DNA of 64,000 nt from Rhizobium sp. 007 (GTDB lineage: Bacteria; Pseudomonadota; Alphaproteobacteria; Rhizobiales; Rhizobiaceae). Of the stretch, positions 9,617 to 39,995 are shown piece after piece. The translations under genes and the position numbers were made by a program. Location of the stretch: the NCBI RefSeq assembly GCF_015353075.1, contig NZ_CP064187.1, forward strand, positions 1,922,001-1,986,000. Reading direction: 5' to 3'. The first letter of the stretch is position 1. Every line of letters begins with the position of its first letter. Below the pieces are notes generated by a model that did no database searches, was not told the DNA's origin, and worked only from the letters and a program-made list of their open reading frames with translations.

Positions 9617-12600
9617 TTATGCCGTTTCTGTGTGACGTGACGGTGCGAGATCGAAGCGCGCCGAATTGCTGCGCGGCGTCCAGAGCCTGCGCTCGATCGC
9701 TTCGAGCAGCCGCTCCTTCATGTCCGCAAGCGCCGCCGGGTTCTTCTCCGCCATGAAATCGCGGACTTTCGGATCGGCGACGAAGGCCTGGTAGACGGCC
9801 TCGAAATGGTGGTTGCCGACGGCACCCGTCGTCGCTGCAAAAGCGAAGAGGTAATCGACCGTCGCGGCGATCTCGAAGGCGCCCTTGTAGCCATGGCGCA
9901 TGACGCCATCGATCCATTTCGGATTGACCGCACGCCCGCGCACGACGCGACCGATCTCCTCCTCCAGCGAGCGGATCACCGGCTTTTCGGGCCGCGAGTG
10001 ATCGTTGTGGTAGATCGCGGGACGTACTCCACCCAGTTGTTCGGCCGCGGCCGCCATGCCGCCTTCGAATTGGTAGTAATCATCGCTGTCGAGCAGGTCA
10101 TGCTCGCGGTTGTCCTGGTTCTGCACCACGGCCTGGATGGAGCGCAGGCGCTCCTCGAAGACGCCGCGTTCGGCCCTGCCTTCCTCCGCCGCGCCGTAAG
10201 CATAGCTGCCCCAGACAAGATAGGATTCCGCCAGATCGGCCCGCCGCTCCCAGCCCTTTTCGTCGATCAAAGCCTGCAGGCCCGCACCATAAGCACCAGG
10301 TTTGGAGCCGAAGATGCGGTAGCCGGCGCGTTTCTGTGCGGATGCCTCATCGAGGCCGGCTGCGGCAAGGCGCGCGGCTTCGCCGCGCATGCGGGCGGCG
10401 ATCGGGTTGTCGGCGGCATCTTCATCCAGAGCACCTACAGCGCGGATTGCCCTGTCAAATAGCGCGATCTGTTCGGGAAAGGCATCCCGGAAGAAGCCGG
10501 AGATGCGCAGCGTCACGTCGACCCGCGGGCGCCGGAGCAGCGCAGGCGGAATGATCTCGTAGCCGGTGACGCGCCGCGAGGTCATGTCCCAGACCGGCTT
10601 GACGCCGATCAGCGCCAGCGCTTGCGCGATATCGTCGCCGCCGGTGCGCATGTTCGATGTGCCCCAGGCCGTCAGCCCGAACGAGACCGGCCAGTCGCCA
10701 TGGTCTTGAACGTAGCGCCGGACGAGCAATTCGGCGGATTTTTTGCCAAGTTCGAAGGCTGCAGGCGTCGGAACGGCGCGGCTATCGACTGAGTAGAAAT
10801 TCCGCCCTGTCGGAAGCACGTCCGGCCGCCCGCGCGTCGGCGCGCCGGAAGGACCGGGAGCGACGAAGCGGCCGTCGAGACCGCGAAGAAGGCCCGCGAT
10901 TTCAGCCTTGCCGCAGGCGAGGATGGAAGGCTTCAGGCGGGTTTCGATCTCGGTGAGAACCGATTGGGTTGCCGGCCAGTCTGGCGGGCATGGAATTTCA
11001 CCGGCGACCAGTTCTGCGGCAAGCAATTCGATGCGCTCGACGGTGTCGCCGTTGGTGCGCCAGGGGGTATTGCAGGTCTCTACCAACAGCGAGGGCCGCG
11101 GACCGAGCCAGGGCGCCGACATATCGCAATCGAGGGGGTCGAAGGCTAGCGACTGTCCCCCAACGGAGAGAAGGTGGCCCGAAGGGTCGGACGAGACGCA
11201 GGGGGCGGAATGTTCGGCCTGGCTGGCGCCTGCTCGTTCGCTCCTTTTGTCGCTTACCCCCTCATCTGTCCTGGCGGACATCGTCTCCCCGCGCAGGAAA
11301 AGAGGGAACCCAAAAAACGCATCTGCCGCAATCGCCCGGTGCAGGCTGGCATCGCCCCGCTCGCCCAAACTGCGCGGAACGCGGGCCAGTGCCACCGTGA
11401 GATCAGTCAGTAACCGGCCCTGCGGCGCAACACCGAACACATGCAGGCCATCGCGAATCTGCATTTCCTTCAGATCGCAAAGATAGGCGTCGAGCTTCTT
11501 GAGCGCCTCGTCCCCGCTCTCGCCTTTGGCGATCCCCGCATCCCGGTCGAGACCAATATCGGCGACGAGATCAAGGATCTGCTTGGCGAGCAGCCGAATG
11601 CGCCGCGGGTCGCCGCCGGAGGCCTCGTAATACTCGTCGACCAGCGCTTCCAGGTCCTTCAACGGGCCATAGCTCTCGGCCCGCGTCAACGGCGGCGTGA
11701 GGTGATCGATGATCACGGCACTCGAGCGCCGCTTGGCCTGCGTGCCTTCGCCCGGGTCGTTGATGATGAAGGGATAGAGATGTGGCAGCGGGCCGAGGAT
11801 CGCTTCCGGATAACATTCCGGAGACAGCGCCAGCGCCTTGCCCGGCAGCCATTCCAGATTGCCGTGCTTGCCCATATGGATCACGGCATCGGCGCCGAAT
11901 TCCTCGCGGAGGAAGGCATAGAAGGCGAGATAGCCATGCGGCGGCACGAGGTCCGGTGAATGGTAGCTTTCCTTCGGATCGATGTTGTAGCCGCGTGCAG
12001 GCTGGATGCCGATGAGGAGATTTCCGAAGCGGGTGAAAGGCAGGGCGAAACTGCCGTCTTTGAAATAGGGATCGGACGCCGGGTCCCCCCAGCGGGCGGC
12101 AATCTCGTCTTGAATCTTTTTCGGAAGAGATGCGAAGAACGCTTTGTACCCATTCAAGCAAAGCGTCTCGCGGATCACCTTGCCATCGTGTCCGGAATTG
12201 GTCGGCCCCTCGGCGAGGTGCCGCATCAGCGCATCGCCATCAGCCGGGAAACCGGAAACAGCGTAACCCGCATCCCGCATCGCCTTCAGCACCTCGATCG
12301 TGCTGGCTGGCGTATCGAGGCCGACGCCGTTGCCGAGGCGTCCGTCACGGTTTGGGTAGTTTGCAAGCACCAGCGCGATGCGCCGCCCCGCAAGCTGCCT
12401 GTTTCGGAGGCGCGCCCAGTTGGCGGCGAGTTTCGCCGTATAACGCATGCGATCGGTATCCGGCTCGCTGGCGACGATATTGGCCTCGACGGCCGCGTCG
12501 TAACGGGCGGCAGACTTGAACGAAACGGCCCGCGCCAGCACGCGGCCATCGACCTCCGGTAGCGCGACGTTCATGCCGAGATCGCGGGCGGAAAGGCCTT

Positions 12601-26084: not shown

Positions 26085-26771
26085 TCAGAAGTCGCCGAGT
26101 GCGTAGCCGGCGCCACGCACCGTCCGGATCACCTTATCGGCCTTGCCGAAACTGATGCCCTTCCGGAGACGCCCGATGTGTACGTCGACAGCGCGCTCAT
26201 CGACACTGGCATCGTTACCCCACAGCGATGCCCTCAATTCCGATCGGGAGTGGACGCGGCCGGGGGACTTCATCAGAAACTCGAGCAGCCTGAACTCGGT
26301 GGGGCCGAGCTTGACTTCCTTCTTCTGCCTGTGAACCCGGCGGGCGTTCTTATCGAGCGTCAGATCCCCGACCTTCAGCGTGCTCTCCAGCAGCGCTGGA
26401 TTGAGACGCCGCAGGAGGTTCCGCAAGCGGATGAGGAGTTCCACGGGGGAGACTGCCTTTATGAGGCAGTCGTCGGCTCCGGCGGAGAGAACGGCCAACC
26501 GGTCCTGCTCGAGGGCCGAGTCCAGCAGCACCACGATCGGAAGGCGGGCGGTCGCTCCAGTTGTCCGGAACTGGCGGCATGTCGAGATTGCCATCGAGCC
26601 AGGAGCCGGCGCACCGAATATCACCGCATCAGGCAGCCGCAACGCCACGAGCTCGACCAGCGACGCATGCGGGTGAAGACAGTTCACCGAATACCCTTCT
26701 GTCTCCAGAGCATGCTTCAGTGTCGCGAGCAGATCTTCGTCCTGCTCAACAACAAGTACCCGCACCGACAT
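26085..26771 (-). CDS. PhoB-like protein with degenerate receiver domain
   Basis: A 228-residue OmpR/PhoB-type protein. Its C-terminal winged-helix domain (residues about 130-226) is very close to that of the adjacent PhoB, including the G-P-T-E-F-R-L-L-E-F-L-M recognition region and V-R-G-A-G-Y. The N-terminal receiver has lost the phosphoacceptor Asp: the position aligned to L-D-W-M-L-P-G of PhoB reads F-G-A-P-A-P-G. The acidic pocket E-D is E-Q, and the switch Thr is missing, while the Lys near 105 remains. It lies 17 bp after phoB on the same strand, with GGAG upstream. It is probably DNA-binding but not regulated by phosphorylation. See findings. Confidence 0.85.
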   Translation of the reverse strand: MSVRVLVVEQDEDLLATLKHALETEGYSVNCLHPHASLVELVALRLPDAVIFGAPAPGSMAISTCRQFRTTGATARLPIVVLLDSALEQDRLAVLSAGADDCLIKAVSPVELLIRLRNLLRRLNPALLESTLKVGDLTLDKNARRVHRQKKEVKLGPTEFRLLEFLMKSPGRVHSRSELRASLWGNDASVDERAVDVHIGRLRKGISFGKADKVIRTVRGAGYALGDF

Positions 26772-26788: not shown

Positions 26789-27472
26789 CTATGCTTCCAT
26801 CGAATATCCTGCGCCGCGGACGGTGCGGATGACGTCCTGCATGTTGGAGAAGTTCAGCGCCTTGCGCAGTCGACCGACATGAACGTCCACGGTGCGCTCG
26901 TCGACATAAATGTCGTGGCCCCAGACACCGTCCAGAAGCTGCGAACGCGAGAAGACGCGGCCGGGCGACGACATCAGGAATTCCAGTAGACGGAATTCGG
27001 TCGGGCCGAGACGGACTTCGCGGCTCTTGCGGTGAACACGATGCGTTTCGCGGTCGAGTTCGATATCGCCGCATTTCAGCACCGTGGAGAGCACCTCGGG
27101 CTTGGCGCGGCGCAGCATCGCCTTGACGCGGGCAACGAGTTCGGGCGTGGAGAACGGCTTGACCACGTAGTCGTCGGCGCCGGTGGAAAGGCCGCGCACA
27201 CGCTCGCTTTCCTCGCCGCGCGCCGTCAGCATGATGATCGGCAGACGCTCCGTTTCCGGGCGCATGCGCAGGCGGCGGCAAAGCTCTATGCCCGACACGC
27301 CCGGCAGCATCCAATCGAGGATCAGAATATCCGGCGTGCGCTCCTGAAGCCTGATTTCGGCCTCGTCGCCGCGCAGAATGGTGTCGACCTCGAAACCTTC
27401 GGCCTCAAGGTTATAGCGAAGAAGCACGCTCAGTGCCTCTTCGTCTTCAACGACTGCAACTCTCGGGATCAT
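26789..27472 (-). CDS. phoB: Phosphate regulon response regulator PhoB
   Basis: A 227-residue response regulator. Receiver domain residues 1-120 have the acidic pair E-D near 9-10, the phosphoacceptor Asp in I-L-D-W-M-L-P-G (about 53), the switch Thr in M-L-T-A-R and Lys in V-K-P-F. The winged-helix DNA-binding domain covers 130-225. When phosphorylated by PhoR it binds Pho boxes, such as those upstream of pstS and phnC here. It is next after phoU (34 bp gap). phoR is not next to it; in many rhizobia it lies just upstream of pstS, where phnC is found here. Confidence 0.95.
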   Translation of the reverse strand: MIPRVAVVEDEEALSVLLRYNLEAEGFEVDTILRGDEAEIRLQERTPDILILDWMLPGVSGIELCRRLRMRPETERLPIIMLTARGEESERVRGLSTGADDYVVKPFSTPELVARVKAMLRRAKPEVLSTVLKCGDIELDRETHRVHRKSREVRLGPTEFRLLEFLMSSPGRVFSRSQLLDGVWGHDIYVDERTVDVHVGRLRKALNFSNMQDVIRTVRGAGYSMEA

Positions 27473-27506: not shown

Positions 27507-28220
27507 TCATTCCGTGACCGCGCCGACGGTGTTGGCAGTATCGTCCTTCGGACGTTCGCCTTCCGGCTGTGCGCCGGTCGCCATGTAATAGATCGTTTCG
27601 GCAATGTTAGTGGCGTGATCGCCGATGCGCTCGATGTTCTTCGCACAGAAGAGAAGATGCGTGCAGCTGGTGATGTTGCGCGGATCTTCCATCATGTAGG
27701 TCAACAGCTCGCGGAACAGCGAGGTGTACATCGCGTCGATTTCCTCGTCGCGCTCGCGGATCGACTTCGCCTTGTCGGCTGAACGCGAGGCATAGACGTC
27801 GAGTACTTCCTTGAGCTGGACCAGCGCCAGTTCGGAAAGATGCTCGAGACCGCGGGCGAGCTTGCGCGGAACGCCGGTGCTCTGCACGGCGATGACACGC
27901 TTGGCGGTGTTCTTGCCGAGATCGCCGACGCGCTCGAGATCGGCCGCGATGCGGATCGAGCCCATGATCTCGCGAAGGTCCGAGGCCACCGGCTGGCGGC
28001 GGGCAATCGTGACGATCGCCTTGTCGCCGATCTCGCGCTCGGCGTGATCCATGACGACATCGTCGGAGATGACCTTCTGGGCCAAGCCAGCGTCACCGTT
28101 AACCAGCGCGCGGACGGCGTCCGACACCATCTGCTCGGCAAGCCCGCCCATTTCCGAGATGCGGCGGGACAAATACTTCAGATCCTCGTCATAGGCAGAA
28201 AAGATATGGGTCGATGCCAT
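27507..28220 (-). CDS. phoU: Phosphate signalling protein PhoU
   Basis: A 237-residue cytoplasmic helical-bundle protein with two PhoU repeats. The metal-binding E-R-V-G-D motif appears near residue 100 (D-L-E-R-V-G-D-L-G-K-N) and its second copy near 200 (N-I-E-R-I-G-D-H-A-T-N). PhoU links Pst transporter activity to PhoR/PhoB signalling. The start M-A-S-T-H-I-F-S follows the pstB stop by 34 bp. Confidence 0.95.
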   Translation of the reverse strand: MASTHIFSAYDEDLKYLSRRISEMGGLAEQMVSDAVRALVNGDAGLAQKVISDDVVMDHAEREIGDKAIVTIARRQPVASDLREIMGSIRIAADLERVGDLGKNTAKRVIAVQSTGVPRKLARGLEHLSELALVQLKEVLDVYASRSADKAKSIRERDEEIDAMYTSLFRELLTYMMEDPRNITSCTHLLFCAKNIERIGDHATNIAETIYYMATGAQPEGERPKDDTANTVGAVTE

Positions 28221-28254: not shown

Positions 28255-29070
28255 TCAGCCGAAGCGGCCCATGATGTAATCCTGGGTGCGCGGGTCGTCC
28301 GGATTGGTGAACATCTTGTCGGTGTCATTCTCCTCGACGAGATTGCCGAGGTGGAACATGGCGGTGCGCTGCGAAACGCGGGCTGCCTGCTGCATCGAGT
28401 GCGTCACGATGACAATACTGTAGTTCTCGCGAAGCTCGTGGATCAGCTCCTCGACCTTGGCGGTCGCGATCGGATCGAGCGCCGAGCACGGTTCGTCCAT
28501 CAGGATGACTTCCGGGCTGACGGCAACGGCGCGCGCGATGCACAAGCGCTGCTGCTGGCCGCCCGACAGACCGGTGCCGGATTCCTGCAGGCGGTCCTTG
28601 ACTTCGTTCCAGAGGCCGGCCTTATGGAGGCTGCTTTCGACGATCTGATCAAGGTCGGCCTTCGACCTCGCAATTCCATGGATGCGCGGTCCGTAAGAAA
28701 CGTTCTCGTAGATAGACTTCGGGAACGGGTTCGGCTTCTGGAAGACCATGCCGACGCGGGCGCGGAGTTCCACGACGTCGATGTCCGGATCGTAGATATC
28801 CGCGTCGTCCAGCTTGATTTCGCCCGTGACGCGGCAATTGTCGATCGTGTCGTTCATGCGGTTCAAGCAACGCAGGAACGTGGACTTGCCGCAGCCCGAT
28901 GGGCCGATGAGGGCGGTAACAGTGTTTTCGCGGACGTTCAGGTTCACGTCGAAAAGCGCACGCTTCTCGCCGTAGTAGACAGACACCGTCTTGCCGACCA
29001 TCTTATAGGCGCTCGTATTCAGTTTCTGCTCCAGAGCCTTCTCAACTGCTGTTTCAGTCAACATGTTCAT
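28255..29070 (-). CDS. pstB: Phosphate ABC transporter ATPase PstB
   Basis: A 271-residue ABC ATPase. Walker A is G-P-S-G-C-G-K-S-T, the signature is L-S-G-G-Q-Q-Q-R and Walker B is [12 protein letters not shown]. The P-x-P-F-P-x-S-I-Y Q-loop region is typical of PstB. It powers high-affinity phosphate uptake with PstC and PstA. The start M-N-M-L-T-E is chosen over an upstream in-frame ATG that lies inside the pstA 3' end; 13 bp separate it from the pstA stop. Confidence 0.96.
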
Positions 29071-29083
29071 AATCCTTACTCCG

Positions 29084-30370
29084 TTACCAGCGGCGTTCAA
29101 AACGCTGCCTGAGGAAGATGGCGATTGCATTCATCAATATGAGGAAGCCCAACAGCACGAGAATTGCGGCGGAGGTCCTCGATACGAAGCCGCGCTCCGG
29201 GCTGTCCGCCCAGATGTAGATCTGGCTGGGAAGGGCCGTCGACGCCGCGAAGATACCATCCGGCGGGCTTGTGATGAAGGCGTTCATACCAATGAGCAGC
29301 AGCGGCGCCGTTTCACCAAGCGCTCGCGCGAGCGAGATGATCGCGCCGGTCATGACGGTCGGCATGGCGAGCGACAGCACGTGATGGAAGATCATCTCGT
29401 GCTTGGAGGCGCCGACCCCGAGAGCCGCCTCGCGGATCGAGGAAGGCACCGCTTTCAGCGACACGCGTGTGACGATGATGAGCGTCGGCAGCGTCATCAG
29501 CGAGAGAACGAGGCCGCCGACGAGCGGAGACGACCGCGGTAGGCCGAAGCCGTTCAGGAAGACGGCGAGCCCGAGGAGACCGAAGACCACCGACGGGACC
29601 GCCGCAAGGTTGTTGATGTTGATCTCGATGAGGTCGGTGAAACGGTTCTTGGGAGCGAACTCTTCCAGGTAGATCGCCGCCGCGATGCCGATCGGGAAGC
29701 TGATCGCGAAGCAGACCAGCAGCGACCAGAACGATCCGGAAATCGCGCCAGCCAAGCCAGCCAGTTCCGGGAAGCGGCTGTCGGCATTGAGGAAGAGCGC
29801 CCAGTTGAACGGGCTGGAGATCACGCCCTTGGATACGAGCTGGTCGATCATGCCGATCTGCTCGTCGCTGACGCGGCGCTGGCTCTCGGGCGTGTCCCGG
29901 CTGATCTCACCCTTGACGAACTGGTCGGCCGGGTCCGACATCGGGATAACGAAGGTGCTCGGCCCCTTAAGGCGCGCCGGATCCTTGATGACCGCGTCGC
30001 GGACGAGGAACGGTGCCGACGACGTGAAGAGGTCGAAGTAGGCCTTCTCCTGCCTGCGAGGCAAATCCCCCACCTGAGTGCGCAACGCGTCGCGTACAGC
30101 GCCGCGCCAATCGGCCTTCATCATATCGCTTGTATCGAGCTCAGCTTTGCTCAGGTCGATGTTGATGGTGGCCACCGTCTGGGTGAACGCCTTGTACCCC
30201 GTGAGCGTCAGAGAACCGATGAGGAAGGCGAGGAAGCCGAGCGCGAAAACAATCGCGATCATGCCATAAACCTGGAGACGGCGCTCGGCGGCATAGCGTG
30301 CCTTCCGGCGCGCCTTCATGTCGTCCGAATGCCAGTTGACACGCGTTCCGGCGACTGCGGTCGTGGACAT
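29084..30370 (-). CDS. pstA: Phosphate ABC transporter permease PstA
   Basis: A 428-residue permease, long for PstA (E. coli about 296). A cytoplasmic N-terminus and one helix (about 37-60) are followed by a roughly 150-residue periplasmic insertion, then the MetI-like permease core with the [10 protein letters not shown] coupling helix near 322-331. The longer form with a periplasmic domain is common in alphaproteobacteria. The start ATG overlaps the pstC stop by one base (TGATG), so translation is coupled. Confidence 0.94.
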
Positions 30371-31749
30371 CAGTATTTCTCCCGGTACTTGCGCACGGTG
30401 CGCAGCGCGATGAGGTTCAAGCCGAGCGTGACGAGGAAGAGCACGAGGCCGAGTGCAAAGGCCGCCAGCGTCTTCGGGTTGTCGAACTCCGAGTCGCCAA
30501 TCAGCAGGGTGACGATCTGGACGGTCACGGTGGTGACCGCGTCGAACGGGTTGAGAGTAATCTTCGCGATCAGGCCGGCCGCCATGACGACGATCATCGT
30601 CTCGCCGACCGCACGGCTGAGTGCAAGAAGGACGCCGCCGATAATCCCTGGCAAAGCGGCGGGCAGCAGGACCTTGCGGATAGTCTCTCCCTTCGTCGCG
30701 CCAAGAGCCAGCGAACCGTCGCGCATGGCACGGGGCACTGCGGCAAAGGCGTCGTCCGAAAGCGAGGAAATGAACGGGATGATCATCACACCCATGACAA
30801 GGCCGGTGGCAAGCGCGCTGTTCGGCGACGAGGGTATCCCGACGGCCGCGCCCAGAGCCCTGATAGCAGGGGCGACAGTCAGCACGGCGAAGAAGCCGTA
30901 GACGACCGTCGGAACACCGGCGAGAATTTCGAGAAGCGGCTTCACGACGGCACGGAACCGCGGGTGCGCATACTCGGTCAGATAGATGGCGGAGAGGATG
31001 CCTGTCGGCACCGCGACCAGCATCGCGATCGCAGAGATGACAAACGTTCCGAACAGAACGGGAAGAACGCCGAACGCGCCCTGCCCCGCCACTTGGTCCG
31101 CACGAATGGCGATCTGAGGTTCCCAGCGCAGGCCGAAGAGAAATTCGGTAACCGGCACCTTCGCAAAGAAGTGCAGCGCTTCGAAGACGAGCGAGCCGAC
31201 GATGCCCAGCGTGATGATGATGGCGACCAGGGAGGAGAACATCATGAAGCCCGTGACCGCAGTCTCGACGCTGTGGCGGGCGCGATACCGTGGGCTGATT
31301 ACCTTCATGCCGAGGAACGCGCCGACGGCGGCGATGCAGAGGCCAATGGCCGTCATCAGGTAGGTAGAGTAGGTCTGGAGGGACCGCAGGTGCTCTGCTG
31401 CAGCGGCAACCTCGGGCGACGGCTGGCGGAACAGGTTTCCGGCCGCGACCTGGCGGATTTCGCCGATCAGCAGCGACCGTGCGGCACCGTCCATGGCTTC
31501 GGAGCCTGGATATGAGGCCACCACAAGCTGATTGATGACGCTGGACTGGAAGGCGAGCCAGAGAAGAAGAAATACGAAAGCGGGAACAGCAGTCCAAATC
31601 GCGGCATTGAGGCCGTGGTAAATCGGCCGGGAATGCGCCTTTATGCGGCTCGTTCCTGCCGTTGTCGCTACGGCGAGGGCGCGCGAGCCTCCAAAGTAGG
31701 CCGCGATCACGGCCGCGGCAACCAATACGAGGAAGAGATAACCGGACAT
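30370..31749 (-). CDS. pstC: Phosphate ABC transporter permease PstC
   Basis: A 459-residue permease with two N-terminal helices, a loop region, and the MetI-like core. The coupling helix region G-S-L-A-L-G-A-T-K-G-E is near 350-360, and the S-R-A-V-G-E-T-M segment near 381-388 is typical. Like PstA it is longer than the enterobacterial form. It starts 62 bp after pstS, with a strong hairpin in that gap. Confidence 0.94.
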   Translation of the reverse strand: MSGYLFLVLVAAAVIAAYFGGSRALAVATTAGTSRIKAHSRPIYHGLNAAIWTAVPAFVFLLLWLAFQSSVINQLVVASYPGSEAMDGAARSLLIGEIRQVAAGNLFRQPSPEVAAAAEHLRSLQTYSTYLMTAIGLCIAAVGAFLGMKVISPRYRARHSVETAVTGFMMFSSLVAIIITLGIVGSLVFEALHFFAKVPVTEFLFGLRWEPQIAIRADQVAGQGAFGVLPVLFGTFVISAIAMLVAVPTGILSAIYLTEYAHPRFRAVVKPLLEILAGVPTVVYGFFAVLTVAPAIRALGAAVGIPSSPNSALATGLVMGVMIIPFISSLSDDAFAAVPRAMRDGSLALGATKGETIRKVLLPAALPGIIGGVLLALSRAVGETMIVVMAAGLIAKITLNPFDAVTTVTVQIVTLLIGDSEFDNPKTLAAFALGLVLFLVTLGLNLIALRTVRKYREKY

Positions 31750-31770
31750 GTTGCCCCCATGTGAGAAGAA

Positions 31771-31795
31771 GCCGCCCGCGGGGTGCGCGGGCGGC
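31771..31795 (-). terminator. Hairpin between pstS and pstC
   Basis: A perfect 9-bp stem (GCCGCCCGC/GCGGGCGGC) with a 7-nt loop, followed on the minus strand by TTCTTCT. It lies directly after the pstS stop and before pstC. Such hairpins after a binding-protein gene commonly act as partial terminators or mRNA stabilisers, giving more PstS than permease; here that is inferred. Confidence 0.65.
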
Positions 31796-31810
31796 CGGTG
31801 AAATTCGATA

Positions 31811-32848
31811 TTACGAGCCGAGCTTCTTGGCGGCCAGGACAGCCTTCTCGACTTCCTCGCGCTTGGAGTCGTCAAGCGGCGTCAGGCCACGTTCGGCAAG
31901 ATAGCCGTCCTCGCCCATCGAAGCCTTGGAAGTGTACTCTTCCAGGAACTCCTTCATGCCAGGAATGACGTCGCGGTGCGCATTCTTGACGTAAATGAAG
32001 AGCGGGCGGGATACCGGGTAGGAGCCGTCCTTGATGGTGTCGAAGCTGGCTTCCACACCTTCGATCTTGATGTCCTTGAGCTTGTCTTCGTTCTCGTAGA
32101 GGAACGAATAGCCGAAGATGCCAACGGAATTCGGATCGGATTCAAGACGCTGAACGATGAGGTTGTCGTTTTCGCCGGCTTCGATGAACGGACCGTCCTG
32201 GCGCATGCGCGAGCAGGCTTCCGTGTATTTCTTCTCGTCGGCCTTCTTGATGTCGGCCATGCCAGGAACCTTGGCGCAGCCCTCGAGCATGACCAGTTCG
32301 ACGAAGGCGTCGCGGGTGCCGGAGGTCGGCGGCGGGCCAAAGGCGACGATGTTGACGTCCGGAAGGGACTTGTCAATGTCGGACCACTTCTTGTTCGGGT
32401 TGGCGACGAGGCCGCCCTTGCCGTCGGGAAGCTGGGCAGCGAGCGCCTGGAAGATCTGTTCCTTGGTCAGGTTCCAGTCGCCAGTATTGGAACGGGAGAC
32501 GGCGATCGAGAGGCCGTCATAGCCGATGAGGGCTTCTGTGATGTCGGTCACGCCGTTGCCGGCGCAGAGCTTGACTTCCGATTCCTTGATCGCGCGGGAA
32601 GCGCCGGTGATGTCTGCGAAGTCTTCGCCGACGCCGCCGCAGAAGGCCTTGAAGCCGCCGCCCGTACCGGTCGACTCGACAACCGGGGCAGGCTTGCCGG
32701 TCTTGTTCGCGAACTCTTCAGCGACGGCCTGGGTGTAAGGGAACACGGTGGACGAACCGACGATCTTGATCTGATCGCGGGCCGATGCGACGCCTGCGGT
32801 TGCCAGCAAAATAGCGGCGACTGCGCAGCTTCCGAGATATTTCTTCAT
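31811..32848 (-). CDS. pstS: Phosphate-binding protein PstS
   Basis: A 345-residue periplasmic phosphate-binding protein. The signal peptide covers residues 1-23 (M-K-K-Y-L-G-S... with A-S-A-R-D cleavage). The mature N-terminus I-K-I-V-G-S-S-T-V-F-P-Y is characteristic, and the T-G-A-S-R and S-G-T-R-D segments carry phosphate ligands. The start M-K-K-Y is supported by the signal peptide. It is the first gene of pstSCAB-phoU-phoB and has a Pho box 64 nt upstream. Confidence 0.96.
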   Translation of the reverse strand: MKKYLGSCAVAAILLATAGVASARDQIKIVGSSTVFPYTQAVAEEFANKTGKPAPVVESTGTGGGFKAFCGGVGEDFADITGASRAIKESEVKLCAGNGVTDITEALIGYDGLSIAVSRSNTGDWNLTKEQIFQALAAQLPDGKGGLVANPNKKWSDIDKSLPDVNIVAFGPPPTSGTRDAFVELVMLEGCAKVPGMADIKKADEKKYTEACSRMRQDGPFIEAGENDNLIVQRLESDPNSVGIFGYSFLYENEDKLKDIKIEGVEASFDTIKDGSYPVSRPLFIYVKNAHRDVIPGMKEFLEEYTSKASMGEDGYLAERGLTPLDDSKREEVEKAVLAAKKLGS

Positions 32849-32911
32849 GGATACTCTCCCGTAGAATTTAACGATGACGCTTCGGCGTCGGCTCCCCTCT
32901 ATAGGCACCAC

Positions 32912-32940
32912 GTAACAGTTTTGTGACAGTTTTGTATCAA
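32912..32940 (-). promoter_or_regulatory. Pho box upstream of pstS
   Basis: On the minus strand CTGTCAC-AAAA-CTGTTAC (32912-32929), two 7-bp direct repeats with a 4-bp A spacer, preceded by a weaker third copy TTGATAC with the same AAAA spacing. This fits the PhoB-binding Pho box (11-bp repeat period). It lies 64 nt before the pstS ATG. Confidence 0.88.
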
Positions 32941-33172: not shown

Positions 33173-33201
33173 GTGACATAAAACCGACATTACACCGTTA
33201 A
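33173..33201 (+). promoter_or_regulatory. Pho box upstream of phnC
   Basis: Three 7-bp units at exact 11-bp period: GTGACAT (33173), CCGACAT (33184) and CCGTTAA (33195), separated by A-rich 4-nt spacers. It is less perfect than the pstS box but has the right period and place, 47 nt before the phnC start. Confidence 0.72.
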
Positions 33202-33247
33202 GAACGCGGCATATGTCCCCTCCAACGCAATGACGAGGGACGCGCCA

Positions 33248-34093
33248 ATGCTGGAAATAACGGATTTGACCCGGCGGTTCGGTGGCAAGACGGCGGTCGA
33301 CCAGACGAACCTGAGAATACCGCAGGGCCAAATGGTGGGCATCATCGGCCGCTCGGGCGCCGGCAAATCCACGCTTCTTCGCATGATCAACCGCCTGCAG
33401 GAGCCGACGTCCGGCTCCATCCGATTCAGCGGCGTCGAAGTCTCCGCACTCCGCGGCGAAGCCCTGCGCAACTGGCAGCGCGATTGCGCGATGATCTTCC
33501 AGCAGTTCAATCTCGTCCCTCGCCTCGACGTTCTGACCAATGTCATGCTCGGCCGCCTCAATCACCGCCCGACCATGCTGAGCATCCTCAACATCTTCAG
33601 CCGCGACGAGCGCATTCATGCGATTGCGGCTCTGGAGCGCCTCGGCATCGAGCAGACGGCGCTGCAGACCGCCGGCACGCTCTCCGGCGGCCAGCAGCAG
33701 CGCGTGGCGATCGCGCGCGCCCTGATGCAGAACCCGAAGATGGTACTCGCCGACGAGCCGATCGCCTCGCTCGACCCGCTGAACGCCAAAATCGTGATGG
33801 ATGCGCTGCGCGACATCAACGAGCGCGAGGGCATTACCGTCATCACCAACCTGCATACGCTCGATACGGCGCGCAACTATTGCGAACGCATTGTCGGGAT
33901 GGCCGCCGGCCGCGTCGTTTTCGACGGCAAGCCTTCAGAGCTGACAGCGGCTGCGGTCAAGGAAATCTACGGCACCGACAAGGATGGCGCCGGCATCGAC
34001 GAGACCATGACGTCTACCTCGATCAACATGCCCGCGCCAGCCACCGCTCAAGCATCCGTCGGCCTGCAACCGGTTGCCCTGGCGGGCCTCTGA
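33248..34093 (+). CDS. phnC: Phosphonate/phosphate ABC transporter ATPase PhnC
   Basis: A 281-residue ABC ATPase: Walker [10 protein letters not shown], signature L-S-G-G-Q-Q-Q-R, Walker [13 protein letters not shown], and N-L-H as the H-loop. The ATG at 33248 ([12 protein letters not shown]) matches the usual PhnC start and follows GAGGGA; an ATG six codons earlier has no such site. The extra about 30 residues at the C-terminus are Ala/Pro-rich. In rhizobia this system (also named phoCDET) takes up phosphate and phosphonates under phosphate starvation. Confidence 0.93.
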
Positions 34094-34180: not shown

Positions 34181-35086
34181 ATGTTGAAGAAAGCACTCTT
34201 TGCCGCGACAGCGCTTTTAGCGCTTGCCGGCGCTGCCGCAGCCGAAGACCTCAAGGAATTCCGTGTCGGCATTCTCGGCGGCGAAAACGAGGCTGATCGC
34301 CTGCGCAATTTCCAGTGCCTGTCGGAAAAGCTTCCCGCTGCGATCGGTGTCGAGAAGGTCTCCTTCTTCCCGGCAGCCGACTATGACGGCGTCGTCCAGG
34401 GCCTGCTCGGCGGCACGCTGGACTACGCAGAACTTGGCGCCTCCGCCTATGCCAAGGTCTATCTCGCCAATTCCAAGGCCGTCGAACCGATCCTGACGAC
34501 CGTGCAGACCGACGGCGCAACCGGCTATTACTCGGTCATGGTCGCCCGCAAGGACAGCGGCATCAAGAAGCTCGAAGACATGAAGGGCAAGAAGCTCGGC
34601 TTTGCCGATCCTGACTCGACTTCCGGCTACCTTGTTCCCCTCGTCACGCTGCCGGAAGCCATTGGCGCTCCGGTCAAGGAATACTTCTCTTCCACCGGCT
34701 TTGGCGGCGGCCACGAGAACCTCGTCTTGGAAGTCGTAAAGGGCAACTTCGACGCGGGCACCACCTGGGCGTCGGGCGTGGGCGAGTTCAAGGATGGCTA
34801 CAGCTCCGGTAACCTTCGCAAGATGGTCGACAAGGGCATCCTGAACATGGACGACCTCGTCGAACTCTGGAAGTCGCCGCTCATCCCGAACGGCCCGGTC
34901 GTCATCCGCTCCTCGCTGAACGACGACATGAAGACCAAGTTCAAGGCATTCATGCTCGGCCTGCCGAAGTCGGACCCGGCCTGCTTCGCTGCCATCCAGG
35001 GCGGCGACTTCAAGGGCTACACCGAGGTCAACGTCGACTTCTACAAGCCGATCATTGACGTCCGCAAGGCAGCCATTGGCGGCTGA
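34181..35086 (+). CDS. phnD: Phosphonate/phosphate-binding protein PhnD
   Basis: A 301-residue periplasmic binding protein with a signal peptide (residues 1-21, cleavage near A-A-A-E-D). The PhnD family pattern F-R-V-G-I-L-G-G-E-N-E, the Y-A-E-L-G stretch and the D-P-D-S-T-S-G-Y-L-V-P ligand segment are present. A CAGGAGAGA ribosome-binding site precedes the ATG. It lies 87 bp after phnC and is followed by a strong hairpin. Confidence 0.94.
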   Translation: MLKKALFAATALLALAGAAAAEDLKEFRVGILGGENEADRLRNFQCLSEKLPAAIGVEKVSFFPAADYDGVVQGLLGGTLDYAELGASAYAKVYLANSKAVEPILTTVQTDGATGYYSVMVARKDSGIKKLEDMKGKKLGFADPDSTSGYLVPLVTLPEAIGAPVKEYFSSTGFGGGHENLVLEVVKGNFDAGTTWASGVGEFKDGYSSGNLRKMVDKGILNMDDLVELWKSPLIPNGPVVIRSSLNDDMKTKFKAFMLGLPKSDPACFAAIQGGDFKGYTEVNVDFYKPIIDVRKAAIGG

Positions 35087-35158: not shown

Positions 35159-36121
35159 ATGAGCGACACTGCGCTGCGCCACCCCCCGAGTGAAACTGCA
35201 AGCATGATCGAGCGGCACTGGCATGAGCTTGCCTCCCGGCGCCGCGGCCAGACGTTGCTTGCCCTGTTTCTCGTCGTCGTCTTCACCGCGGGTTCGGTGT
35301 GGTTCGCCAATGAGACCAACGCGGGCAAATTTTGGGACCGCCTCCGCTATCTGGCGGACTTCGTGGGGGACCTCGTGCCGCGCGACGCGTGGGAGCCGGT
35401 GCGTGCCCTGCTCGATCTCCCCTCCCCCTATTACGACGGGAGCCAGAAGTACGACTACCCCGAGGGCCGGTTCTACGTCACGCAGACCCTCTACGTTCCG
35501 GAATATGTCGAAAAGATCGTCGAGACGGTGAATATCGCCATCTTCTCCACAGGCGTCGGCTTCTGCCTGGGATTCGTGCTCTGCTTCTCCGCAGCGAAGA
35601 ACATGACGCCGAATCCTTATGTCAGGGGCGCCGTACGCCGCTTCATGGAAATTCTTCGAGCGTTTCCCGAGGTCGTCATCGCAGGCTTCTGTCTGGCAAT
35701 TCTGTCGCTGGGGCCGGTCCCTGCGATCATCGCACTATCCGTCCACACCACCGGAGCGCTCGGAAAGATGTTCTTCGAGGTGGTGGAGAACGCCGACATG
35801 CGCCCCGACGAAGGCCTGCGGGCCGTCGGCGCGACCTGGCTCGAACGGGTCTGGTTCGCAATGGTGCCGCAGGTCATGCCCAACTTCGTGAGCTATTTCC
35901 TCCTGAGGCTTGAGATCAACGTGCGGGCGTCCACGATCATCGGTGCGGTCGGCGGCGGCGGCATCGGCGAGCTTCTCAGGCTCTCGATCGGACAGGGTCA
36001 TCCGGCCAAGACTCTTGCGATCGTATTCCTGCTTTTCTGCACCATCATTGCCGTCGACCAGTTCTCCGCATGGCTGCGTAAAAGGCTGGTCGGCGAGCAG
36101 TCGTTCCGCGCCGTGGTATGA
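35159..36121 (+). CDS. phnE: Phosphonate ABC transporter permease PhnE1
   Basis: A 320-residue inner-membrane permease. One N-terminal helix (about 29-48) and a periplasmic segment with Y-D-Y-P-E-G-R-F are followed by the MetI-like core with E-G-L-R-A-V-G-A-T-W near 220-229. The C-terminal V-G-G-G-G-I-G-E-L-L stretch is typical of PhnE. The ATG at 35159 is chosen; a TTG ten codons earlier lies inside the hairpin. It is 10 bp ahead of phnE2. Confidence 0.92.
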   Translation: MSDTALRHPPSETASMIERHWHELASRRRGQTLLALFLVVVFTAGSVWFANETNAGKFWDRLRYLADFVGDLVPRDAWEPVRALLDLPSPYYDGSQKYDYPEGRFYVTQTLYVPEYVEKIVETVNIAIFSTGVGFCLGFVLCFSAAKNMTPNPYVRGAVRRFMEILRAFPEVVIAGFCLAILSLGPVPAIIALSVHTTGALGKMFFEVVENADMRPDEGLRAVGATWLERVWFAMVPQVMPNFVSYFLLRLEINVRASTIIGAVGGGGIGELLRLSIGQGHPAKTLAIVFLLFCTIIAVDQFSAWLRKRLVGEQSFRAVV

Positions 36122-36131
36122 GGTTGCATCG

Positions 36132-37661
36132 ATGAACACGCTTTCGCCCGTCCAAAAGGCCGACATCGCCGCGCGCCACCCGCAGCTCTTCGACACCACC
36201 TCGCTGCGCCGCTACCGCGCTCCTCTTCTCGTCATTCTCGCAGCCGCCTATGTCGCGTTCTCGTTCTGGTTCTTCGCGTTCGGAAAGGTCTTCTCTCAGG
36301 CCGACTACTCGATCGCCGGCACCTACCTTGCCGACTGGATCTCCTTCGAGGTTCGTCCCGAGATCGACATGGCAGCCGACGGGACCATGAAGATTTCCTA
36401 TTCCCGGTTCGATCCGCTCGGCGAACATCCGAACCCCGACTGGGTGCAGACCGAAAAATCCGTCGTCACCCATCAGACCGGCACAGCCACACCGACGGCC
36501 AGCCCGTCCGAGCCACAGACAAAGCCGAAAAGCAGCATATTGCTGATGGCTCCCGGTGCGGCCATGGGATCGTCCGCACCTAAAGGGTCCGGCTCGCCCG
36601 CGCAGCACCCGGTGGCGACCGCTCCGGCAATCGTCACCGAGGAGGTTGTCACACGGGCGCGGATCGCCATGAGCAGCAGTTCCTCGATAGAAATGACTGC
36701 CAATAAGGCGGTGTTGACGAGAGGCGGAGAAACGGTCGTCGTGCCGATGGGCAGGCCGGACATCCGCATTGGAGCTCCCCTTCCGGACTGGGCGTCGCAG
36801 AGGCGGCCGGGCGAGAAGATCATAGCCAGCTTCGGATTCGCGGGCTGGGCGGAAGTCACGACCAACGACGTCAAGGTCCACAAGCGGTTTCTCGGGTGGG
36901 TGAATTTCCTGTTCGACACGCGGTCTCCCTTCTTCGGGAAGCCATATTCCGAGGTTGCAAGCCTCATCCTCAGCGGTCCACGCATCGACCCGGAGCGAAG
37001 CAACCTCGCTCTCGCCTGGGACAACATCCTCTACAACAGCGAATGGCAGCACCTCGACGTCTGGACGAAGCTCCTGCAGACCATCGTGATGGCGTTCGTG
37101 GGCACCCTGTTCGCCTCGCTCGTCGCTTTCCCCCTGGCATTCGTGGCGGCACGCAACATCACCCGCAACCGCCCTACGAACCAGGTGACGAAAAGGTTCT
37201 TCGATTTCCTTCGCTCCGTCGACATGCTGATCTGGGCGCTTTTCTTCACACGCGGCTTCGGGCCTGGGCCTCTGGCCGGCATCTCGGCGATCTTCTTCAC
37301 GGATACCGGGACGCTGGGCAAACTGTATTCGGAATCGCTCGAGAACATCGACGAGAAGCAGCGGGAAGGCGTCCGCTCCGTCGGAGCGTCGCCGATTGCG
37401 GTGCAGCGGTTCGGCGTCCTGCCGCAGGTGCTTCCTGTCTTCGCGTCCCAGGCCCTCTACTTCTGGGAGTCCAACACGCGCTCCGCGACGATCATCGGCG
37501 CCGTCGGCGCGGGAGGAATCGGCCTCAAACTCTGGGAGGCGATGCGCACCAACCAGGACTGGGAGAACGTCGGCTACATGGTGCTCCTCATTCTGATTGT
37601 CGTGTTTGCCTTCGACGCCGTCTCGAATGCGATCCGGTCACGTCTGATGGGACGCCGCTGA
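36132..37661 (+). CDS. phnE: Phosphonate ABC transporter permease PhnE2, enlarged
   Basis: A 509-residue permease paired with PhnE1. After the first helix (about 31-51) there is a soluble periplasmic part reaching to about 310. It includes a low-complexity Thr/Pro/Ser/Ala stretch at about 115-170 (T-G-T-A-T-P-T-A-S-P). The MetI-like core follows, with E-G-V-R-S-V-G-A-S-P-I near 410-420 and V-G-A-G-G-I-G-L near 457-464. The tandem PhnE arrangement is normal in rhizobia; the size of the periplasmic part is at the high end and the low-complexity insert looks unusual. Confidence 0.9.
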   Translation: MNTLSPVQKADIAARHPQLFDTTSLRRYRAPLLVILAAAYVAFSFWFFAFGKVFSQADYSIAGTYLADWISFEVRPEIDMAADGTMKISYSRFDPLGEHPNPDWVQTEKSVVTHQTGTATPTASPSEPQTKPKSSILLMAPGAAMGSSAPKGSGSPAQHPVATAPAIVTEEVVTRARIAMSSSSSIEMTANKAVLTRGGETVVVPMGRPDIRIGAPLPDWASQRRPGEKIIASFGFAGWAEVTTNDVKVHKRFLGWVNFLFDTRSPFFGKPYSEVASLILSGPRIDPERSNLALAWDNILYNSEWQHLDVWTKLLQTIVMAFVGTLFASLVAFPLAFVAARNITRNRPTNQVTKRFFDFLRSVDMLIWALFFTRGFGPGPLAGISAIFFTDTGTLGKLYSESLENIDEKQREGVRSVGASPIAVQRFGVLPQVLPVFASQALYFWESNTRSATIIGAVGAGGIGLKLWEAMRTNQDWENVGYMVLLILIVVFAFDAVSNAIRSRLMGRR

Positions 37662-39446: not shown

Positions 39447-39620
39447 TCAGACTATGAGGACGATCAGCTTTCGGTCGAACAGGCAGACGATGGATCGTGG
39501 TCGTTGGTTCGGTGGCAGCTTGTCAGCGAGGATGGCGATGAAGACCAGGTTGTCGATCCCCAACACGATTTCGAGAGCGATCAAGGTCGCAAGACCAGCC
39601 CAAGCCTCTGGATCAGACAT
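39447..39620 (-). pseudogene. TerC-family membrane protein, N-terminal fragment
   Basis: About 57 codons keep the start of a TerC-family integral membrane protein ([22 protein letters not shown]). After that the frame loses similarity and stops. The rest of the gene (normally 230 residues or more) is absent. It is joined in frame to a transposase fragment, which indicates an insertion-sequence-linked deletion. Confidence 0.78.
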
Positions 39621-39665
39621 GTCGACAGAGCCGCATACCGCGAAATGCATAGAGCGTGAAGACAG

Positions 39666-39995
39666 ATCGTTGTAATCGCTGCGCCAACTAGAAAACGCCG
39701 ACCGAACATGAGCCAGTGACGAGAAAAGCGTTTCATTCAATAGCTCATCTCGCAACCGTACATTGAAGCTCTCGATGAAGGCGTTCTGGATTGGCTTGCC
39801 AGGCGCGATGTAATCCCAACCCACCTTGGTTCAATCCGTCCATTGAAGGATCACGTTGCTGGTGAATTCGCTGCCATTGTCACTGACGATCATCTTGGAT
39901 TTTCCGCGTTCCTCGATGATCCGATCCAGCTCACGAGCAACACGCAGGGCGGAGAGCGAGGTATCGGCCACGAGACCCAGGCATTCTCTGGTAAA
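39666..39995 (-). mobile_element. IS3-family transposase (OrfB) remnant
   Basis: About 110 codons of an IS3/IS407-type DDE transposase. R-E-C-L-G-L-V-A-D-T-S-L, then the second catalytic Asp in I-V-S-D-N-G-S-E-F-T and the Glu region in [16 protein letters not shown] are clear. An in-frame TGA at 39831-39833, probably from CGA, interrupts it. The N-terminal part with the first Asp and the C-terminal end are missing. No terminal inverted repeats are visible. It is a dead copy. Confidence 0.85.

Follow-up and report, generated by a model that had tools for sequence, protein, structure and literature searches.

The phoB2 gene and its operon

The window, i.e. the whole stretch of 64,000 nucleotides of Rhizobium sp. 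007 that was analysed, is part of a 4.30-Mb contig in a genome of 7.6 Mb. Its minus strand carries the genes pstS-pstC-pstA-pstB-phoU-phoB-phoB2 in this order, with phnCDE1E2 in divergent orientation (Table 1). The last gene, phoB2, is an intact open frame of 228 aa with an ATG start. It begins 17 bp behind the stop of phoB and is preceded by GGGAGG at a distance of 9 bases and GGAG at a distance of 3 bases. Its GC3 value is 0.76, compared with 0.76 for phoB and 0.80 for phoU. A preliminary description had reported a second PhoB-type gene directly after phoB, with an intact frame, a ribosome-binding site and normal codon use, and all of these points are borne out by the values given here.

Table 1. 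Features of the pst-pho-phn region (positions within the window)
Feature	Position	Strand	Remarks
phoB2	26085..26771	-	PhoB paralogue; pseudo-receiver (Q10, G53, L83, C102, K105) and conserved winged-helix DNA-binding domain
phoB	26789..27472	-	ordinary PhoB, the sole phoB found in the genome, above the NCBI PhoB cut-off
phoU	27507..28217	-	identity to annotated phoU of plasmid operons
pstB	28255..29070	-	
pstA	29084..30370	-	arsenic-island type; 82% to PstA of an Ensifer aio plasmid, 50-52% to PstA of four other genomes of the genus
pstC	30370..31761	-	arsenic-island type; no other close PstC found in the genome
pstS	31811..32851	-	arsenic-island type; 84-85% to Ensifer aio plasmids
Pho-box-like repeats upstream of pstS	32912..32929	-	CTGTCAC-AAAA-CTGTTAC; third half-site 11 bp upstream
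Pho-box-like repeats upstream of phnC	33173..33190	+	GTGACAT-AAAA-CCGACAT; 10/14 matches, weaker
phnC	33230..34093	+	divergent from pstS
phnD	34181..35086	+	
phnE1 and phnE2	35189..37658	+	74% and 63% to the PhnE pair of an Ensifer aio plasmid; ends as matched, not start codons

The encoded protein contains the Pfam domains Response_reg (40.8 bits, cut-off 30.2) and Trans_reg_C (87 bits, cut-off 26.2), in this order, and is thus an OmpR/PhoB-type response regulator. The best PDB matches of its fold model (mean pLDDT 86, pTM 0.57) are full-length OmpR/PhoB regulators. With 215.9 bits, PhoB2 is below the cut-off of the NCBIfam PhoB equivalog TIGR02154 (296.2 bits), whereas the neighbouring PhoB is above it (341.9 bits). 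The two proteins of the window are identical at 46/122 positions of the receiver (38%) and at 63/103 positions of the DNA-binding domain (61%). The description of the DNA-binding domains as nearly the same is therefore accurate for the recognition helix, which is almost identical, but overstated for the domain as a whole.

In the receiver of PhoB2, D10 is replaced by Gln, D53 by Gly and T83 by Leu (E. coli numbering, used throughout), and E9 and K105 are kept. The preliminary description had already reported Gly in place of the phosphoacceptor and the loss of one acidic-pocket residue and of the switch Thr. With the phosphoacceptor Asp replaced and other catalytic residues missing (G53, Q10, L83), the domain is a pseudo-receiver, i.e. 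an aspartate-less receiver. Many further changes are found in it, including the 84-88 loop, P106A and F107V. The Y102C exchange, the clade, the arsenic-island setting and the separation of the operon from phoR, all reported below, go beyond the preliminary description.

The Pho-box-like repeat upstream of pstS has 11/14 matches, a value reached by 1.0% of 1000 random 378-nt stretches of the window. The same box, with T as the last base, precedes pstS in all four operons checked for it (L120-L123). A scan of the whole window with the Pho-box consensus gave a number of hits not above chance, and the assignment of the pstS box thus rests on position and conservation. A simple scan for promoters and terminators around phoB2 yielded no promoter and two terminator-like sites versus 1.2 expected, so that no terminator is claimed after phoB2. 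The spacing of the genes suggests that the operon is co-transcribed including phoB2. A short open frame at 39447-39824 resembles, as judged by eye only, a transposase fragment of an IS element.

The PhoB2 clade: residues and selection

In the homologue search 8000 candidates were scored, 6877 of which passed 1e-40, and the best 120 were listed. Sorting by rank and key residues gave 58 PhoB2-like proteins (fragment P0056 excluded) and 63 PhoB proteins, each set including the respective window protein, and residues were counted in the alignment of the two sets. The closest named matches of the window PhoB2 are two Rhizobium mongolense records (97%). Among the matches listed, the named members belong to Rhizobium, Ensifer/Sinorhizobium, Agrobacterium, Neorhizobium, Pararhizobium, Mycoplana and a few other Rhizobiaceae.

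Both trees that were calculated unite the PhoB2-like rows in a single clade (62 rows with support 100/99, and 55 rows with 100/100). The outer group of the first tree consisted only of PhoB of the same order, and the PhoB2 clade was placed beside all of them. For the second tree, 29 PhoBs of other alphaproteobacterial families were used as outgroup and seven long-branch rows were left out. In this tree the clade lies inside the PhoB of the order, near Rhizobiaceae PhoB and on a stem of 0.72, and by this placement the PhoB2 clade is derived from phoB; due to the long stem, its exact sister PhoB is not firm (89/78).

The phosphoacceptor D53 is absent from 48 of the 58 members and kept in 10, the replacements being Asn (20), Ser (13), Gly (11), Glu (3, all from Sinorhizobium: P0009, P0011, P0019) and Ala (a single member). 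Of the other catalytic positions, T83 is kept in 10/58, K105 in 45/58 and D10 in 46/58. The mean entropy of the five catalytic positions among the 58 members (1.70) is reached by 13% of random sets of PhoB-conserved receiver positions. The catalytic positions are thus not singled out as more variable than such sets, and, taken by itself, their loss argues only weakly for a new function.

Position 102 behaves differently. Tyr102 is the partner of the switch Thr; it is present in 62/63 PhoB proteins (Phe in the remaining one), whereas 56/58 PhoB2-like proteins have Cys. A non-Asp residue at position 53 is combined with Cys102 in 46/58 members, including the window protein (G53, C102). Cys65 is common to PhoB2 and PhoB, and Cys102 is the only clade-specific cysteine. 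Together with N118 and A194 it makes up the clade-wide signature residues.

The residues that we take to form the alpha4-beta5-alpha5 dimer face are highly conserved. L95, D100, E111, R115 and R122 are kept in 58/58 members, both singly and all five together, position 101 is Asp or Glu in all 58, and 48 members have R91. The mean entropy of the seven dimer-face positions, picked from what we presume the interface to be, is 0.21 bits, compared with 1.22 for random PhoB-conserved receiver sets, and about 1 in 10,000 such sets is as low. Of the presumed PhoB DNA contacts, R201, R203, T217 and R219 are present in 58/58, R193 in 57/58 and H198 in 56/58, and T194 is Ala in 51/58. The residues listed as sigma70 contacts in the available text of PMC3348028 (W184, G185, V190, D192) are about as conserved as in PhoB: W184 and G185 are invariant in the 58 members, V190 is present in 52 (Ile in the other 6), and position 192 is acidic in 58/58.

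On the second tree two changes are counted for Y102 (54/55 rows have Cys and one row within the clade has Tyr), two for A118N, of which one apparently belongs to a PhoB row, and one for T194, which is consistent with changes at all three positions on the stem of the clade. D53 requires two changes, most simply two losses, and T83 three. The seven long-branch rows, three of which (P0055, P0059, P0060) likewise have D53, do not enter these counts. Five members (P0026, P0027, P0029, P0030, P0046) retain all five catalytic residues and already have Cys102. Hence the coupling residue changed before the loss of the phosphoacceptor, and D53 was lost after Y102C, apparently at least twice; early members with all catalytic residues may still be phosphorylated.

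Selection was estimated as Nei-Gojobori dN/dS between the phoB2 of the window and five distinct comparators (L034, L035, L036, L139, L140). The whole-gene values are 0.06-0.19. The values for receiver and DNA-binding domain are 0.16 and 0.04 for L034, 0.32 and 0 for L035, 0.19 and 0 for L139, and 0.07 and 0.055 for L140 (dS 0.25); for L036 the DNA-binding domain has 0.04 and the receiver dS is saturated. The DNA-binding domain thus has 0-0.055 across the five comparators, with small substitution counts in the closest pairs, and phoB itself has values of 0 to 0.02 in the same pairs. More distant pairs of the clade have 0.04-0.28 for the receiver and 0.03-0.09 for the DNA-binding domain where dS was computable. 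Compared with phoB, phoB2 thus evolves faster, chiefly in its receiver, yet purifying selection acts on both domains and is stronger on the DNA-binding domain. The proposal that the gene is kept by selection is supported by these values and by its occurrence in many species; a gene confined to this strain and relaxed over the whole protein, which had been named as the opposite outcome, is not what was found.

Distribution and genomic setting

At E <= 1e-97, phoB2 was found in 6/148 genomes of the genus, including the window genome. In a sample of 394 genomes of the family, at least five have a match with a score far above those of PhoB; more carriers may exist, since the scores of diverged members may not differ from those of PhoB. 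The distribution is patchy. The gene adjoins phoB in 14/14 contexts (the window, L034-L038, L091-L094, L120-L123); the two genes are separated by about 110 bp in L094 and by about 10-30 bp elsewhere. L124 and L177 are close repeats of L123 and L120 and do not belong to the 14. The genes are also adjacent in L137-L141, three of which appear to be the genomes of L034-L036 again, from another collection. Plasmid pC6.5c of Rhizobium rhizogenes (L125, 8001-8681) encodes a lone PhoB-like regulator with 44% identity, Asn53 and Tyr102. It adjoins phnCDEE, has no phoB beside it, and is perhaps an outlying relative.

All four other genomes of the genus that were compared (L129-L132) have the usual gene order ppk2-phoR-pstSCAB-phoU-phoB-argD-argF-hslO. 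In the window genome, phoR and argD are found at about 0.16 Mb of the contig, and the pst-phoB block between them is missing (L128, C1:148000-166000, 9677-10737). Apart from those of the window, which lie about 1.8 Mb from phoR, no phoB and no close pstC was found in the genome. PstS, PstC and PstA of the window share 84, 78 and 82% identity with their counterparts on the arsenic plasmid of Ensifer E-60, and 44-52% with those of the four relatives. In contrast, PhoB of the window is 97-99% identical to PhoB of the four relatives. With pstSCA of the arsenic-island type beside a phoB of the usual Rhizobium type, the operon looks mosaic. The R. mongolense contexts L034 and L035 have the flanking gene g25024 in common with the window and differ from it in pst type; in L035 the site also matches the window in usp but carries the other type of pstA, whereas pstSCA of the window (29084-32851) is of the arsenic-island type. 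This suggests an allele replacement inside the pst operon.

Arsenic islands with pst, pho and phn genes are already known, according to the available parts of two reports (PMC3834237, PMC7533571). We found 19 plasmid records with a match to PhoB2. Six of them (H1-H6) have 54-63% identity, and all six matches lie within about 12 kb of arsenite-oxidase genes; the other 13 (44-49%), of which only H19 was examined, were taken as ordinary PhoB or unclear. Residue 53 of the plasmid members is Asp, or Glu in S. americanum, and several early-branching members keep D53. In L037, arsK adjoins phoB2. The aio cluster of the window genome itself is located at C1:2.91 Mb, about 0.96 Mb from the pst operon (aioX, aioS, aioR, aioB and aioA at 9415-16123 of L175, C1:2893000-2912000), and pst genes are absent from the 19 kb around it. 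The idea that phoB2 marks arsenite oxidisers as a general rule holds for the six plasmid records but fails in the family: among its 394 genomes, aioA is present in 2/5 detected carriers of phoB2 and in 51/389 others, a difference that is not significant (p = 0.14).

Interpretation and comparison with known systems

We judge PhoB2 to be a natural pseudo-receiver version of PhoB. Three roles had been proposed for it, i.e. constitutive activator, competitor and heterodimer partner. Of these, the evidence described above favours the activator, is compatible with the heterodimer partner, and makes a pure competitor less likely, since the sigma70-contact residues are conserved too.

In the best-supported reading, which we regard as about evenly balanced between right and wrong, PhoB2 would be a natural phosphorylation-independent (constitutive) PhoB that exerts positive feedback from an operon with a Pho box. 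After a duplication of phoB, the copy first gained Y102C, which would break the Tyr-Thr coupling of the dimer face to phosphorylation, and later lost D53, apparently more than once. As the alpha4-beta5-alpha5 face, the Pho-box contacts and the sigma70 loop are retained, PhoB2 should form dimers, either of its own or mixed ones with PhoB, and should turn on Pho-box promoters independently of PhoR. Since phoB2 closes a pst-phoB operon equipped with a Pho box, the level of PhoB2, and not its phosphorylation, would be regulated. PhoB~P would turn the operon on and PhoB2 would build up, adding a phosphate-independent and slowly diluted component. Placed last in an operon that PhoB drives, a constitutive PhoB would contribute positive feedback and hence a more sustained Pho response.

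Two structures of E. coli PhoB bear on this reading. The sequence of PDB entry 2JBA has Ala53 and Cys102 (plus a K-to-R difference near 69), and that of 2JB9 has Ala10 and Glu53. We take these entries to be the two constitutively active PhoB receiver mutants, the activity of the 2JBA form likewise being our assumption; two such mutants are reportedly, by its title, the subject of one paper. By its sequence, with a residue other than Asp at position 53 and with Cys102, the window protein qualifies for the D53A/Y102C type and so resembles 2JBA, and Glu53 of the three Sinorhizobium members resembles 2JB9. However, both entries are laboratory double mutants with an otherwise nearly intact receiver, whereas PhoB2 occurs in nature as a gene of its own next to a normal PhoB, and its receiver differs at many more positions. 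In support of the assignment of the two entries, the Asp10Ala/Asp53Glu protein is described in the available text of PMC3978041, with reference to the paper on the two mutants, as constitutively active and able to activate Pho promoters without phosphorylation, and a similar use is found for AbrC3 (PMC4428217). On the other hand, the equivalent Tyr mutant of RitR is mostly monomeric and less active, according to the accessible part of PMC4395418, and the effect of losing this Tyr is thus not uniform.

A main role as heterodimer partner comes next and is a tentative possibility: PhoB2 would pair with PhoB~P and shift promoter choice or the lifetime of PhoB~P. The invariant dimer face (58/58) and the PhoB encoded alongside in 14 contexts speak for it, as does the precedent of the BldM-WhiI heterodimer, as far as the available source text goes. 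In addition, a single interface is common to OmpR/PhoB members, and the formation of mixed dimers has been considered. However, the same residues serve homodimers, and the lone relative on pC6.5c has no adjoining phoB, although it retains Tyr102 and its membership in the clade is uncertain.

We think it unlikely that PhoB2 is a competitor or damper that occupies Pho boxes, activates poorly and lowers the maximum of the Pho response. The conserved DNA contacts and the window receiver without a phosphoacceptor would fit such a role, but the sigma70-contact residues are about as conserved as those of PhoB, and Y102C matches a constitutive form rather than a dead one. A decoy for PhoR is disfavoured: positions 17, 20 and 23 of alpha1, on what we assume to be the kinase-recognising face of the receiver, are conserved in PhoB and variable in the clade (entropy 2.7-2.8).

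Slightly less likely still is a thiol switch at Cys102, by which the redox state or arsenite would control PhoB2 across the dimer face instead of phosphate. Cys102 is nearly invariant, in contrast to the drifting D53, and already occurs in members whose catalytic residues are all intact, the six plasmid records with 54-63% identity come from arsenite-oxidase islands, and cysteine redox switches are known among other pseudo-receivers. Yet there is one clade-specific cysteine only, it is missing in two members, the operon of the window lies outside an arsenic island, and the distribution of aioA in the family shows no significant association. We give the same low probability to the extended form of this idea, in which Cys102, besides being an activating lesion, would be an arsenite or oxidant sensor on the dimer face that replaced the phosphate switch and, in arsenite-oxidising rhizobia, coupled the Pho regulon to arsenic stress; the later chromosomal members would have given up the phosphorylation site and retained the thiol. 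That PhoB2 is a decaying, functionless duplicate kept by chance or by operon structure, as its faster-evolving receiver, patchy distribution and score below the PhoB equivalog cut-off might indicate, is very improbable in view of dN/dS values well below 1 in both domains (0-0.055 for the DNA-binding domain), the signature residues C102, N118 and A194 across the clade, the intact frame and the adjacency to phoB across genera; a pseudogene or an oddity of one strain is rejected on the basis of dN/dS and the clade.

Natural evolution has here reached the same Cys102 as a laboratory PhoB that we take to be constitutively active, which makes PhoB2 a direct and testable case. The operon type offers a graded series, from the intact parent through members with Cys102 and all catalytic residues to members with D53 changed to Asn, Ser, Gly, Glu or Ala, and would represent a circuit in which the amount of a regulator, and not its phosphorylation, carries the signal. 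The switching of bacterial pseudo-receivers "remain[s] a mystery" according to the available text of a 2025 review. Among the top hits listed in our search of open-licence papers, covering titles and the starts of abstracts, nothing concerned a tandem phoB pseudo-receiver.

RitR, ChxR and HP1043 share with PhoB2 the OmpR/PhoB architecture and the missing phosphoacceptor. They are presumably orphans with targets of their own, whereas PhoB2 is encoded beside its parent and has kept the parent's DNA contacts. Activity without phosphorylation has been reported for ChxR and HP1043. The dimer face of ChxR is atypical, while PhoB2 keeps the classic one. CmrT of C. difficile, the second regulator of cmrRST, is, like PhoB2, an atypical regulator co-encoded with a normal one in an autoregulated operon; for CmrT, control of a pseudo-receiver by expression level in such an operon has been proposed (available text of PMC12632262). 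In contrast, the phoB2 operon contains no kinase gene. The arsenite-oxidising Agrobacterium strains 5A and GW4 also possess pst-pho operons, of which one is part of an arsenic island. To judge by the available text of PMC3834237 and PMC7533571, the names PhoB1 and PhoB2 appear to denote the PhoBs of pst1 and pst2 in these strains and not a tandem pair with a pseudo-receiver.
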